Assembly: GCF_900103005.1 (NCBI RefSeq) | Contig: NZ_FMWL01000013.1 | Span: 1 to 64,000, forward strand | DNA length: 64,000 nucleotides | Reading direction: 5' to 3' | From: Acidaminobacter hydrogenoformans DSM 2784 | GTDB lineage: Bacteria; Bacillota; Clostridia; Peptostreptococcales; Acidaminobacteraceae | Shown here: positions 25,713 to 29,821 of the stretch, piece by piece | Layout: every line of letters begins with the position of its first letter | Position numbering within the stretch: position 1 is the first letter of the stretch | Translations under genes and position numbers: made by a program | The notes under the pieces: model-generated | What the model was told of the DNA's origin: nothing | Databases searched by the model: none | The model's input: only the letters and a program-made list of their open reading frames with translations

Positions 25713-26294
25713 CTAAAATCTGTAGTTGATCATACTTCCGCTCTTTCTGAACCACTGATTCAGCATGGTGTTCTGAATAAAATAGGCCAGTCCGGCACTG
25801 ATCAGCAGATCCCCCACGCTAAAAAGCTTTGAAAGCGGATAAATTTCCGGAATGGCTATGACCTTGCCCAAATAATAGGCGAGACCATCTGCACTCGTGA
25901 CGAGAACGTAATTGATCACCGACCCGTCCTGGATCGTTTCGAGCAGAGACTGCATCCCCGCTCTCATCAGCGCGGTTTCTGTGACAGGCATTCTGAAGCC
26001 GGAAAGTCCCATAGCCAGGGCATTCAGAAGTGCGCCAATCAGGATGATATAGAAGCCTTTGTTTTTTCGGTTCATAAGAACTGCGGCAATCATCACCAGT
26101 GTTCCCACGAAAGGAAAAAACGCGAGCCAGTTTTCAGATTTGATGAAGGGCTCAAGTACAATGGGCGATATTTGAAGGATGACTGCTGTAATGATCAGGC
26201 TCACCCCTGCGATCTCAAGATCAAGCAGATTCCTGACTCTGCCGTTTCGAACAATACCGGCAATCAGTCCAATGGCTAAAGCCTCAATAAACAT
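25713..26294 (-). CDS. DUF5317-like membrane protein (second copy)
   Basis: A 193-residue hydrophobic protein with about five predicted membrane helices. The start IEALAIGLIAGIVRNGR and the segment LIGALLNALAMGLSGFRMPV parallel the neighbouring upstream gene product (LLVGVVLNMIVIFSNNGKMPVD), so the two are paralogues. Both share a G-x-MPV turn and a carboxyl segment SVGDLLI/SLGDLVMD-VG. I associate this layout with the DUF5317 family of unknown function. The ATG at 26294 follows GAGGAGG and overlaps the end of the preceding gene by 11 bases, so translation is coupled. The close link to an HD-GYP protein suggests a sensing or signalling role, which is inference. Confidence 0.7.
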   Translation of the reverse strand: MFIEALAIGLIAGIVRNGRVRNLLDLEIAGVSLIITAVILQISPIVLEPFIKSENWLAFFPFVGTLVMIAAVLMNRKNKGFYIILIGALLNALAMGLSGFRMPVTETALMRAGMQSLLETIQDGSVINYVLVTSADGLAYYLGKVIAIPEIYPLSKLFSVGDLLISAGLAYFIQNTMLNQWFRKSGSMINYRF

Positions 26295-26889
26295 GGGTTT
26301 CCTCCTCTTCAAGCGCATTTGGATTTTCCCTCAGATTCAGGACAAAAACCATCAATACGCCAACGTCCATAACCAAATCTCCCAGGCTGACGCTTTTGGG
26401 CATAGGATAAGGGGGTCTGAGATGTAATATGTCCGCAAGAAAGGCGAGCTTTGTCGTTTCGGCATTGATTGCTGAATGTCCAAACACCAAGCCGGATTTA
26501 AGCTGCTGGGCAGTATGAGTAAAGCCATAGCTTACCGCCATATCAATATCCACCGGCATTTTGCCGTTGTTGGAAAAGATCACAATCATGTTGAGGACCA
26601 CACCCACCAGGAGCATGGCCACGCCCGGTGTTTTGAGATTAAGCGCGAAAAAAGCCACCAGCAAGGAATAGACCAGCACCATCAGCGTCAGCTCGTAATC
26701 AAAGATCAAACCGCGCAGGTCATCAGAACCGCGGTTCAGGGCGATCTGAATACCCGCTTCAACGACAAAAGCCAGAAACGGCAGCCAAACCCCTTTGATT
26801 TTGACATTCTCGACCAGGTGATGCCAGCGGTTGCTGACCACGGCAATCAAAAGACCCAAAATTGTAGTTTCAATCAACATAGGTGTCAC
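26284..26889 (-). CDS. DUF5317-like membrane protein (first copy)
   Basis: A 201-residue membrane protein with about five helices, paralogous to the next gene. It contains the sequence VVLNMIVIFSNNGKMPVDID, where N-G-x-MPV is the shared motif, then a soluble loop (LKSGLVFGHSAINAETTKLA) and the segment PKSVSLGDLVMDVGVLMVFV. Function unknown. Translation probably starts at GTG 26889, overlapping the HD-GYP stop codon (GTGA) as in translational re-initiation; ATG 26880 is an alternative. The tail ends in an acidic cluster before HVY. Confidence 0.7.
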   Translation of the reverse strand: MTPMLIETTILGLLIAVVSNRWHHLVENVKIKGVWLPFLAFVVEAGIQIALNRGSDDLRGLIFDYELTLMVLVYSLLVAFFALNLKTPGVAMLLVGVVLNMIVIFSNNGKMPVDIDMAVSYGFTHTAQQLKSGLVFGHSAINAETTKLAFLADILHLRPPYPMPKSVSLGDLVMDVGVLMVFVLNLRENPNALEEEETHVY

Positions 26890-28166
26890 ATCATTTCATG
26901 TGTTTTAGGAATTTGTCCGCGCTCAGCGCAGCGGACAAACGCGTCAACGACCTCCGGATGGAATTGCTTTCCACGTTCCTCTTTGACAATGGACAGCGCA
27001 ACTTCAAAAGACATAGCTTTACGGTACACCCTGTCAGAGGTCATGGCGTCAAAGCTGTCTGATACCGCAATGATTGCCGCTTCAATGGGAATGGTCTCTC
27101 CCGCGATCCCTTCAGGGTAACCCTTTCCATCATACCGCTCATGATGGTAGCGGATATAGCTTGATAACTCCTCCAGGGACTTGACGTCCTTGACGATATT
27201 CGCGCCTATTTCAGGATGCTTTTGAATGATCGCCATTTCATGGTCCTCAAGTCTTCCAGGTTTATTGATAATAGTATCACTGATGCCAATCTTTCCAATG
27301 TCATGGAGGATCGCCGCCGTCTTGATTTCATCAATCAAGAGTACAGGGATTTTCATCTCTTTGGCGAGGATCATGGAAATCTGAGCTACCCGGTGAGAGT
27401 GGCCGTTGGTATACTCATCCTTGGCGTCCAGCGCGTTGGACAGGGTTTTGATGGTTTCAAAATACTGGTTCTTCATGTCCAGGTAAAGCTTGAAGCTGTA
27501 ACGGGCGACGAGGAGTGGACCGAGAACTAATAACACCATAAACCAACCGCTGTTAACGTATAGAATCGCCATGAAGACGCCAATTGGCGAAATGCCAATA
27601 AAATTTTGTACGATCCAAACCATTTCGTGCATGGCGCCCTTAAAATCAAAGCGATCCAGTAAAGCAAATAAAATAATAAAAATGCTGATATTGATAAACA
27701 CATTGACCGCAACTGCGACAATAATGCTAACAATTCCAAAACCAGCAACCGTAAATGCAGGGAGTACTGAATGGCTCATCTGATATGCGTTGCCTGCTAC
27801 CAATGATCCAATCGCGTACGCGCTGCCATTAAATAAACGTTTATATACAGAACTATTAAAAATATGATGGTATTTCCCTTCGGAATAATAAATGCTGAAA
27901 AAAGTCCCAAGAAAATTTACTGCTGCTGCTATATAGGGGTCAAATATCAAAATGGCAGCCAAACCAATCGCGAATCCAAGGGAAACATATTTCTTATCAT
28001 TAACTTGTATAACCATGGATTCAGCCAATAAAGACAGCAGTGCAAAAAAAAGCACTGAAGTTAATTTAGTTTCAGCGCTTATCATTTGTACCGCCTCGAA
28101 AATTATTAAGAAGCCAAACAGGATTATAAAAGTGGTAAAAATTCTAAATATATTATTATGCTTCAT
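26886..28166 (-). CDS. Membrane-anchored HD-GYP domain protein (probable c-di-GMP phosphodiesterase)
   Basis: A 426-residue protein. Residues 1 to about 225 hold six to eight membrane helices with no recognised sensor domain. A short linker leads to an HD-GYP domain from about 240: HSHRVAQIS, the HD pair at His288-Asp289 in ILHDIGKIG, HHERYDGKGYP with the GYP motif at 349-351, and SDSFDAMTSDRVYRKA. All metal-binding and GYP residues are present, so c-di-GMP hydrolysis is likely. The ATG follows AGGAGA by seven bases. Upstream on the same strand is a 26-residue peptide gene inside a structured RNA; downstream are two DUF5317-like membrane proteins. The membrane part may sense a ligand, and the adjacent peptide is a candidate; this is inference. 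Confidence 0.88.
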   Translation of the reverse strand: MKHNNIFRIFTTFIILFGFLIIFEAVQMISAETKLTSVLFFALLSLLAESMVIQVNDKKYVSLGFAIGLAAILIFDPYIAAAVNFLGTFFSIYYSEGKYHHIFNSSVYKRLFNGSAYAIGSLVAGNAYQMSHSVLPAFTVAGFGIVSIIVAVAVNVFINISIFIILFALLDRFDFKGAMHEMVWIVQNFIGISPIGVFMAILYVNSGWFMVLLVLGPLLVARYSFKLYLDMKNQYFETIKTLSNALDAKDEYTNGHSHRVAQISMILAKEMKIPVLLIDEIKTAAILHDIGKIGISDTIINKPGRLEDHEMAIIQKHPEIGANIVKDVKSLEELSSYIRYHHERYDGKGYPEGIAGETIPIEAAIIAVSDSFDAMTSDRVYRKAMSFEVALSIVKEERGKQFHPEVVDAFVRCAERGQIPKTHEMM

Positions 28167-28192
28167 AAATAATCTCCTAAATCGAATACAAT

Positions 28193-28418
28193 AAAAAATT
28201 CGGTCGGTCGATCGGCGGCCTAGGCTATTTCCAGCCTACGTAAGCTCCACCAGCCAGTAAAAGAGACAGGAAGGACATAAATACTACGGATAATCTCTTT
28301 TTCATTGAAAAGAACCCCCTTGTGAGTTGACTCTGCTGCTTCGCTATGGGCCGCAGGCTGTCTTACTCTTCGCTAAGGGTTTCCTGATATTAGCTTTGGT
28401 ACACCGACCGAATTTTTT
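28193..28418 (-). promoter_or_regulatory. Structured leader RNA bounded by a 16-bp inverted repeat
   Basis: The 16-base word AAAAAATTCGGTCGGT at 28193-28208 recurs as its perfect reverse complement at 28403-28418. In the minus-strand transcript the two ends can pair and the 3' copy ends in six U residues, so the stem would be a long-range terminator in front of the HD-GYP gene. Inside are a hairpin at 28372-28394 (GCUAA/UUAGC), a multi-part stem at 28324-28368 (GAG-GAC-CUGC/GCAG-GUC-CUC) and a 26-codon ORF. A segment AACCCUU (28375-28381) can pair with the peptide's ribosome-binding site AAGGGGG (28315-28321), competing with the first hairpin. It matches no riboswitch class I know. Confidence 0.5.
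28225..28305 (-). CDS. 26-residue hydrophobic, signal-peptide-like small protein
   Basis: The peptide begins MKKRLSVVFMSFLSLLLAGG and ends AYVGWK. It has a basic amino end (KKR), a hydrophobic core of about 14 residues and a short polar tail with aromatic residues, which is the shape of a secretion signal with only about six residues beyond the core. A strong ribosome-binding site, AAGGGGG, lies nine bases upstream. The stop is TAG at 28227-28225. It is too short for most gene finders. It lies inside the inverted-repeat RNA and 58 bases before the HD-GYP start. Possible roles are a secreted signalling peptide, a leader peptide controlling the downstream operon, or a membrane microprotein; I cannot decide between them. 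Confidence 0.6.
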   Translation of the reverse strand: MKKRLSVVFMSFLSLLLAGGAYVGWK

Positions 28419-28441
28419 GACGATGAGGATGTGGTACCTTG

Positions 28442-29065
28442 CTACAATTGGTACATCTTGCGGTTTACTGCATCTAACGTGGCTCTGACGATGGCTTCAT
28501 TCTCAGACTTTCTAACCACCGCTGCGCCTACGAGAAGATGCTCATCATGGCTGTCCGCAAGGGAAATTGCCACCATGGCCACTCTGGTTTTTGCAAGAAG
28601 GTTAACCTCAACATCTTCGACCACGAGCTGCCGGTCTGATTCCAGCATGTTGAGAACGCAGTTCAGCGTCGCTGTGACGACCAGTCTCATGGCATTTCTC
28701 ATGGAATTGACACCTTTGCAGGTCCCTATGAATTCTTCGTCAAACATTCTAAGCTTGACGGTGGCGGTCGCAATATTGTCTTCTTCCACCTCGTATGTAA
28801 CCTTGGACAAGAGGATGCGTTCAAGACGCTTATCCCTCGAACCGTCTTCGATTTGCGCAATACTGATCATCCTGTGATCTATAGGCATCCCATAGTATGC
28901 CGTCAGAGAGGACTGGATGTCTCTGGAAATCTGTTTTGGGGCTCTGGTTCGATTGGTCAATACGTGGATTTCTCTGATCTCCTGCCCATCCAGTACGACC
29001 TTGGAAGCGATGACGCCGGACAACTTATTTATGACGTCTTCGTACTTAAGTACTTTTTCTTCCAT
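28442..29065 (-). CDS. Conserved protein of unknown function
   Basis: A 207-residue soluble protein without membrane segments. It starts EEKVLKYEDVINKLSGVIA. A central stretch (EIREIHVLTNRTRAPKQISR followed by YGMPIDHRMISIAQI) resembles conserved hypothetical proteins I recall from Firmicutes and Actinobacteria, and the carboxyl half (VKLRMFDEEFIGTCKG onward) looks like a second alpha/beta repeat. No catalytic motif is visible. I chose ATG 29065, preceded by GGGGGG, over an upstream start. A strong promoter (TCGACA, 17 bases, GATAAT at 29158-29186) and a pair of TGTTAC boxes lie upstream. No function is assigned. Confidence 0.6.
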   Translation of the reverse strand: MEEKVLKYEDVINKLSGVIASKVVLDGQEIREIHVLTNRTRAPKQISRDIQSSLTAYYGMPIDHRMISIAQIEDGSRDKRLERILLSKVTYEVEEDNIATATVKLRMFDEEFIGTCKGVNSMRNAMRLVVTATLNCVLNMLESDRQLVVEDVEVNLLAKTRVAMVAISLADSHDEHLLVGAAVVRKSENEAIVRATLDAVNRKMYQL

Positions 29066-29157
29066 GCGTAATTCCCCCCATTCTGAATACCATGTTAAGG
29101 TCATTATACAAAAAAAAAGAAGTCTTGCAAATAGCGTCTATCAAGGATTCGAGCCGA

Positions 29158-29217
29158 ATTATCGCATAATTGCAGCAATTTGTCGACTTTTTACCCTTTT
29201 GTAACACAACTGTAACA
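29158..29217 (-). promoter_or_regulatory. Promoter with tandem TGTTAC boxes
   Basis: On the minus strand, -35 TCGACA (29186-29181) and -10 GATAAT (29163-29158) are 17 bases apart. Upstream, TGTTAC occurs twice with a five-base gap (29217-29212 and 29206-29201), which fits the TGTWAH-N5-TGTWAH pattern of WalR and, more generally, OmpR/PhoB-family direct repeats. Confidence 0.5.
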
Positions 29218-29250
29218 GAACCCCGTCTCAGCAACTGGAAGGCTGCAACT

Positions 29251-29279
29251 AAAAAGCCCGAAGCGCAAAGCTCCGGGCT
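29251..29279 (-). terminator. Terminator of hpf
   Basis: The stem AGCCCGGAG/CTTCGGGCT is followed by TTTTT on the minus strand, just after the hpf stop codon. Confidence 0.88.
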
Positions 29280-29287
29280 GAGATGAT

Positions 29288-29821
29288 TTATAACATAGGC
29301 TCAATCAGACCATACTTGCCATCTTTCCTCTGATAGACGACATTGACTTCATCCGTTTCCCCGTTCCGGAAAACAAAGAAGTTATGGCCCAACAGCTCCA
29401 TTTGAAGGATGGCCTCCTCAGCATCCATAGGTTTGACAGGAAAGCGCTTTGTCTTGACTATGCCATGCTCCACAGGCGCACTATAGGCGCTCTCAGGAAT
29501 ATGTTCAAATCTGATTGTGTCATGGCCTTTATAGCGTTTTTCCAGCTTGGTTTTATGCTTCGAAATTTGCTTCTGCAGCTTCTCCACCGCCATGTCAATT
29601 GACGCGTACATGTCAGGCGAAGATTCTTCTGCGCGGAAGATGGCACCATTTTTAAGAGGGATCGTAATCTCGACGATCTGACGGTTTTTCTGGACACTAA
29701 AGGTGGCAGTAGCCTCCACATCTGTCTTAAAGTACTTTTGGAACTTGTCCAGCTTTTCCTCGACCATCTTTTTCAGAGATTCCGTAATCTCCACATTTCT
29801 CCCTGCTACGATCACATTCAT
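29288..29821 (-). CDS. hpf: Ribosome hibernation-promoting factor, long form
   Basis: A 177-residue long-type HPF (RaiA/YfiA family). Residues 1 to about 100 form the S30AE domain (VIVAGRNVEITESLKKMVEE, later AEESSPDMYASIDMAVEKL). After a linker, the carboxyl-terminal domain from about 120 (FPVKPMDAEEAILQMELLGH, ending DGKYGLIEP) mediates 100S dimer formation in Gram-positive bacteria. It inactivates ribosomes in stationary phase or under stress. ATG 29821 follows GGAAGGAG. A sigma-B-like promoter signature lies about 95 bases upstream. Confidence 0.95.
   Translation of the reverse strand: MNVIVAGRNVEITESLKKMVEEKLDKFQKYFKTDVEATATFSVQKNRQIVEITIPLKNGAIFRAEESSPDMYASIDMAVEKLQKQISKHKTKLEKRYKGHDTIRFEHIPESAYSAPVEHGIVKTKRFPVKPMDAEEAILQMELLGHNFFVFRNGETDEVNVVYQRKDGKYGLIEPML

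Follow-up and report, generated by a model that had tools for sequence, protein, structure and literature searches.

A structured RNA element that may gate a looped-out micropeptide gene upstream of HD-GYP genes in Bacillota

Results

The window, a stretch of 64,000 nt from Acidaminobacter hydrogenoformans DSM 2784 (contig NZ_FMWL01000013.1), carries on its minus strand an element that runs from 28418 to 28193. In the order of transcription, this strand holds hpf (29288-29821), UP220, the element, an HD-GYP gene, two DUF5317 genes, and secA. UP220 (28442 to about 29065, minus strand) is an ORF of 220 aa; it lies upstream of the element and is its conserved partner. The HD-GYP gene (26886-28166, minus strand; Pfam HD_5, 2.6e-37) is of the c-di-GMP phosphodiesterase type with an ECF S-component-like membrane domain, and directly 3' of it lie the tandem DUF5317 membrane-protein genes (25713-26889, minus strand). 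DUF5317 also follows the HD-GYP gene in some relatives (e.g., locus L009). Two further features of the window are a CAGTGC-A8-GCACTG hairpin with a poly-A/T loop (28038-28057), which lies within the 5' coding part of the HD-GYP gene and is terminator-like on both strands, and a SAM riboswitch (RF00162, 37347-37497, minus strand, 69.4 bits), the sole Rfam match in the window.

A consensus scan for promoters placed sigma-70-like sites (consensus matches only) just upstream of UP220 and 3' of a terminator that follows hpf, and one weak promoter-like site within UP220; none was found between UP220 and the element, and none on the plus strand from 27900 to 29400. We infer that UP220, the micropeptide gene within the element, the HD-GYP gene, and the DUF5317 genes form one operon with a polycistronic mRNA. 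The first-pass annotation had placed the start of the RNA at the 5' arm of the element, a position that fits neither the nearest promoter-like sites, which lie in or upstream of UP220, nor the relatives, in which this arm begins a median of 6 nt 3' of the UP220 stop codon (quartiles 2 and 15).

The HD-GYP protein keeps the HD residues, and its HHE and GYP-motif residues are invariant. Its N-terminal ~200 residues are predicted to fold like ECF S components of the riboflavin, folate, and biotin types (4hzu_S, Z 14.5, rmsd 3.2, 160 aligned; several others above Z 12); given this match, the protein may be a membrane sensor of a small molecule. UP220 has no family match above cut-off and a weak match to LeuA_dimer (E 0.0032). 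Its predicted fold combines a cation-efflux-CTD-like domain with a LeuA regulatory domain, the C-terminal half resembling the regulatory domain of LeuA/citramalate synthase (3f6h_B, Z 10.7, rmsd 3.2, 118 aligned).

A protein-based first scan of the genome collection returned one close relative only, Acidaminobacter sp. MAG4, whose element is about 95% identical (estimated from the alignment) and whose HD-GYP gene has a diverged start. To reach wider relatives, whole genomes had to be searched with proteins and with the RNA model. HD-GYP orthologues from other genera of the order (35-47% identity) have the same element upstream each time. For the core, we built a covariance model (R1) with 74 positions and 12 pairs from 14 sequences. 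Searched without gene information, it had matches, mostly in single copy, in 35 of 394 genomes at the level of the order, 41 of 391 at that of the class, and 32 of 398 at that of the phylum; about 10% of the class genomes thus carry the element. We examined 85 loci by tblastn: UP220 lies before the element in 84 of them and the HD-GYP gene after it in 79, and a contig end cuts the locus in each of the other cases. This agrees with the first-pass annotation, which saw the HD-GYP gene directly downstream.

UP220 was found in 46 of the same 391 class genomes, and all 46 have the element, 40 by the model and 6 by eye; the latter six carry a recognizable divergent version, peptide and closing stem included. 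Conversely, 40 of the 41 genomes with the motif have UP220, and one of the 345 genomes without UP220 has a match, a weak one (Fisher's exact p 5e-47, with the six divergent genomes counted as negative). As far as these data go, the element is obligate in the UP220/HD-GYP locus. One model match, in genome G476 (E 0.0015), sits at a contig edge without UP220. A second match in G455 (E 0.003, L119) was rejected as chance; it lies in an open protein-coding frame that is phosphoglycerate kinase-like. At two loci, a raiA RNA (RF03072) lies upstream of UP220 (L134:450-653 and L146:324-526), which puts two large structured RNAs in one neighbourhood.

The ends of the element in the window are 16-nt perfect inverted copies, AAAAAATTCGGTCGGT and ACCGACCGAATTTTTT, with 194 nt between them, as the first-pass annotation had recorded; they are the sole inverted repeat detected in 27900-28700. 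The 5' arm (28403-28418, minus strand) is complementary to the 3' arm (28193-28208, minus strand) at 16 of 16 positions, and the 3' arm ends 26 nt before the HD-GYP start. At each homologous locus, the 60 nt preceding the core were compared with the 60 nt following the peptide stop, and the best complementary stretch was scored; 72 of 86 loci have a closing stem, of differing sequence, at p<=0.01 against per-locus dinucleotide shuffles; several of the loci that failed have a stem further out. These shuffles replaced an earlier null in which 3' flanks were permuted among loci, which was weak because arm sequences are common to related lineages. Between lineages the arms are wholly different (e.g., TTTAGGTCGGCA/TGCCGACCTAAA, AAGCCAAAACATCGA/TCGATGTTTTGGCTT, and AATAAAAGATCAACACCA/TGGTGTTGATCTTTTATT), which is compensatory change.

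The stem has a median length of 15 bp, many stems being only 9-14 bp, and a median arm-to-arm length of 206 nt. At the other foot, the 3' arm ends a median of 21 nt before the HD-GYP start (quartiles 18 and 28), just 5' of the HD-GYP Shine-Dalgarno (SD) sequence. With its arms at the UP220 stop and the HD-GYP start, the stem therefore loops out the peptide cistron exactly between both genes. The first-pass annotation had also taken the stem for a terminator, a reading that is not supported as a general one. The window has a U-tract. Beyond the GC part of the 3' arm, 21 of 75 loci, window included, have 6 or more T in 8, and 39 of 75 have 5 or more; most relatives lack the tract (e.g., GCCGACCTAAAATACTATATAAGG at L041). 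A GC-rich stem with a U-tract conserved in homologues, the mark of an intrinsic terminator or attenuator, was thus not found, and termination is not the general role.

Within the stem, the relatives share a fixed order of elements: nAGCGNAGCG, a variable stretch, CCUGY, a loop with UAGCGRA, RCAGAG, a spacer, a purine-rich SD, and an ORF of 21-26 codons, the whole framed by long-range complementary arms of unrelated sequence. In the window, the first copy of the conserved UAGCGAAG lies at 28368-28375 (minus strand, as are all parts of the element); the family consensus is nAGCGNAGCG, and its columns are near-invariant across 55 homologues. This copy is followed by the 5' strand of the P2 hairpin (CUGC, 28353-28356), by a second, near-invariant copy of the same octamer, UAGCGAAG, in the P2 loop (28339-28346), and by the P2 3' strand (GCAG, 28333-28336) with a conserved AG after it; the P2 strands covary.

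The 228-nt element folds with a better energy than its shuffles (z -2.5; 2 of 200 shuffles), and z is about -2.5 on either strand. This is a modest signal, and single-sequence folding alone decides nothing; the comparative evidence is decisive. In 72 homologues aligned to the model, 83% of the P1 and P2 cells are standard pairs, and 11 of the 12 pairs have changed on both sides. P2 is the stronger helix, with 94.8% of cells paired and double changes in all four of its pairs (72 homologues), and P1, which is 77% paired, shifts its register among lineages. The 163 double-change cells in P1 and P2 were reached by none of 500 shuffles, and sliding the partner by one to three columns lowered the covariation score from 0.468 to at most 0.09; the picture is the same with 55 homologues. 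The alignments were fitted to the model structure, so that the pair counts lean to it, a concern that the slid controls limit. RNAalifold recovered P2 only, plus one or two neighbouring pairs, and missed P1 because its register shifts between lineages; P1 rests on the pair counts for the named structure, on per-sequence folds, and on the SD-pairing statistics given below, and it is weak in the window itself. Helices that covary and sit at a constant position with respect to a gene, as seen here, are what a cis-acting structured RNA would show. The main suggestion of the first pass, a new structured RNA with a long-range stem and inner hairpins, is supported. In cores from outside the class (L092-L118; e.g., L096, L103, and L118), a GCGGU after the first UAGCGAAG can pair with an ACCG that sits between P2 and the SD; this pairing would compete with P1 and could be an 'on' state.

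The SD of the peptide (GGGGG, 28315-28319) contains in its 3' part the 3' strand of P1, as defined by SD pairing and P1 covariation in the family. Over 85 homologous cores, the mean predicted SD pairing probability was 0.62, as against 0.45 with the 5' part shuffled (Wilcoxon p 4e-9), and in 20 of the 85 it was not above the shuffled mean. The predicted partner is P1 in most lineages, a local CCC...GGG hairpin in four loci (L134, L137, L138, and L146), and, in the window and its sister species, the ACCCU/CCCU just 5' of the first UAGCGAAG. This last partner belongs to a GGAAACCCU-like segment (28376-28386) predicted for the Acidaminobacter genus from the partition function only; the probability that the SD G's pair with CCCU is about 0.39 in the window, and in the sister species it reaches 0.98-0.99. 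Pairing of the SD is thus non-random by prediction, with P1 or substitute helices hiding it. Because occlusion is retained while its partners change between lineages, the pattern suggests that occlusion itself is under selection. The alternative folds of the first-pass annotation are supported by this predicted SD pairing, with one correction: the ACCCU partner predicted in the window is not the family's covarying one, which is P1.

The micropeptide ORF (28225-28305, minus strand) encodes 26 aa, MKKRLSVVFMSFLSLLLAGGAYVGWK, and belongs to a conserved family of 20-34 aa. The usual plan is MKK, a hydrophobic stretch, a small motif such as GGA, and a short tail in which W is frequent. Conservation extends over the hydrophobic N-terminal part and is marked at the C-terminal tail; the latter follows GG(A/S)-x-aromatic-x-W, with W among the last three residues in 60 of 86 peptides. 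The peptide assigned to L093 was left out for a wrong start. Between close pairs, differences fall at codon positions 1, 2, and 3 in the numbers 49, 24, and 106, and 90 changed codons are synonymous and 52 non-synonymous, where 25% synonymous would be expected by chance (p 1e-21). Given this positional bias and synonymous excess, the ORF is very likely translated and its peptide is, by the measure of these substitutions, under purifying selection, which also upholds the peptide gene proposed in the first pass.

No NCBIfam model matched the peptide above cut-off, nor did the Phr- and AgrD-type pheromone models of NCBIfam for five peptides (best PhrK, 14.3 bits vs 35). Judged by eye, the body of the peptide looks like a short signal peptide in which an AxA-like site precedes a pentapeptide, making export a possibility; lineages with MTFLTMILDLFTRTIASISWW or MKKVMRIVARLLSGGSNYIW are unlike signal peptides by the same measure. 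Some lineages therefore lack signal-peptide features and yet keep the tail, which weakens the idea of a secreted pheromone. Short C-terminal tails include SFSWK, HISWW, and NYTLI. The distance from the peptide stop to the 3' arm has a median of 12 nt and a range of 0 to 88 nt.

At the Rfam gathering threshold, no family, c-di-GMP-I and -II riboswitches included, matches the element in the window or in 34 related loci. With E up to 10, the region 27900-28700 gave four chance-level matches only, none of them a c-di-GMP riboswitch, in agreement with the first-pass view that the element is neither type. The covariance-model search and Rfam scan proposed there as checks thus found covariation and no known family, and its reading was not refuted. 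No description of the element was found in the open-licence PMC literature. Three genome-wide RNA discovery surveys do not mention HD-GYP genes in their main texts, and an earlier listing of the element without a name is possible. Element and micropeptide family are apparently absent from Rfam, NCBIfam, and the open-licence literature.

Discussion

We consider it fairly probable that the element represents a new family of cis-acting RNA, one by which a micropeptide cistron is looped out and its translation gated within an HD-GYP operon. This reading builds on the structure and its covariation, on synteny, and on coding selection, all of which are observed, and on SD occlusion as predicted. We infer the switching, its trigger, the coupling effect of the loop-out, and the target and membrane role of the peptide. 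In the proposed mechanism, the closing stem would fold out the intergenic region of roughly 200 nt as a single domain, one foot standing on the stop codon of the first gene (UP220) and the other on the ribosome-binding site of the third (HD-GYP). P1, or a substitute local helix, would hide the peptide SD, and the P2 hairpin with the two UAGCGRAG copies would serve as the sensing or recognition part. A ligand or an RNA-binding protein bound there would shift the balance of P1 and so turn translation of the peptide on or off, and the loop-out would let UP220 and HD-GYP be translated as neighbours either way. For the hydrophobic peptide, the most likely site of action is the membrane, where the membrane domain of the HD-GYP protein is a plausible target.

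A bolder version, which we hold to be unlikely as it stands, makes the locus a phylum-wide signalling unit: the RNA would sense a ligand or protein and gate a signal-peptide-like micropeptide with a tail, and the peptide, exported or inserted into the membrane, would then act on the S-component-like sensor domain of HD-GYP. If true, this would add both a new riboswitch-like class and a new peptide input into c-di-GMP signalling.

Other explanations were weighed against the gating of a functional micropeptide. The peptide could be a leader (arrest) peptide without a job of its own, whose conserved C-terminal residues, adjacent to the stop codon, would make the ribosome pause; the paused ribosome would open the stem foot and so tune HD-GYP expression. 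The median of 12 nt between the peptide stop and the 3' arm, within reach of a ribosome at the stop, the marked conservation of the tail (60 of 86 peptides have W among their last three residues), and the odc1 precedent of an SD-sequestering RNA with a conserved short peptide (PMC8632094) all speak for such a role. Yet conservation includes the hydrophobic N-terminal part, the stop-to-arm distance varies between 0 and 88 nt, and the HD-GYP SD lies outside the closing stem in the listed loci, so that opening the stem would have no obvious effect; we regard this explanation as doubtful. Less probable still is an attenuator or riboswitch of the HD-GYP gene, in which the closing stem would be a terminator stabilized by ligand-induced inner folding, as in HMP-PP. 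HD-GYP does follow wherever the contig allows, and the window and about a quarter of the relatives (21 of 75) have a U-rich tract at the 3' arm, but most relatives lack the tract, the loop of about 170 nt holds a translated gene, and the conservation of the peptide sequence is left unexplained.

The architecture itself, with paired ends, SD masking, and a hydrophobic peptide of 20-34 aa, is also that of a type I toxin-like module, a membrane-active micropeptide mRNA that, like hok and aapA, is silenced by pairing of its 5' and 3' ends and by masking of the SD (aapA as described in PMC6733600). Against this, the element is single-copy, lies within an apparent operon, and is fixed between the same two genes across the phylum rather than mobile, and the opposite strand has no promoter-like site in the element by the consensus scan; we regard a toxin as very improbable. 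The position of the stem, exactly between cistrons and with a median of 15 bp, would suit an RNase III-type processing or stability site that separates the UP220, peptide, and HD-GYP messages. We give this hardly any weight, since it leaves the conserved core motif and P1/P2 unexplained and many stems have only 9-14 bp.

It is unusual for an RNA element and a micropeptide family to keep a single gene position across a phylum, and standard gene finders would tend to overlook a micropeptide gene this short. The locus ties RNA control and a hydrophobic peptide to a c-di-GMP phosphodiesterase with a vitamin-transporter-like membrane domain, in an architecture where a cistron is looped out by a stem set on one gene's stop codon and the next gene's ribosome-binding site. 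Should the UAGCGRAG/CAGAG core bind a ligand, the element would be an orphan riboswitch candidate with a clear gene context.

Comparison with known systems

Nearest in kind is the odc1 motif (uORF-25-1), a structured RNA with a hidden ribosome-binding site and a short peptide ORF upstream of the main ORF, in which P1 hides the ribosome-binding site and leads into the conserved short ORF (Brewer et al., 2021; PMC8632094). The present element resembles it in that a main ORF is preceded by a conserved short ORF whose SD takes part in alternative structures. The odc1 motif belongs to alpha-proteobacteria, encodes an 11-aa peptide, has the start codons of peptide and main gene close together, and differs in sequence (PMC8632094), whereas the present element occurs in Bacillota and its long-range stem loops out the entire peptide gene.

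The hok and aapA mRNAs, in which long-distance end pairing is combined with SD masking (PMC6733600), are alike in being small hydrophobic peptide mRNAs with paired ends and a masked SD. In aapA, the long-distance pairing itself masks the SD (PMC6733600), and the present closing stem has no SD inside it. The present element is also a fixed operon element beside an HD-GYP gene, with a conserved UAGCGRAG/CAGAG core and no antisense promoter-like site seen. The HMP-PP (thiS) riboswitch, whose aptamer is embedded in a terminator (PMC6478431), shares an aptamer-like domain inside a long terminator-resembling stem; the present element differs in its lack of an Rfam match, the mostly absent U-tract, the peptide-coding loop, and the genes involved. 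With the c-di-GMP-I and -II riboswitches, the likeness is the neighbourhood of a c-di-GMP enzyme, and the difference is that neither gives an Rfam match here. The raiA motif/ModT (RF03072; PMC11706538) is likewise a Bacillota structured RNA in a raiA/hpf neighbourhood, but it is a separate RNA in a separate place, with no raiA match in the element or the window. Sequence, genes, and looped-out layout are shared with none of odc1, hok/aapA, and HMP-PP. RNA elements that control short ORFs are known, and this family, its peptide, and its layout appear to be new.
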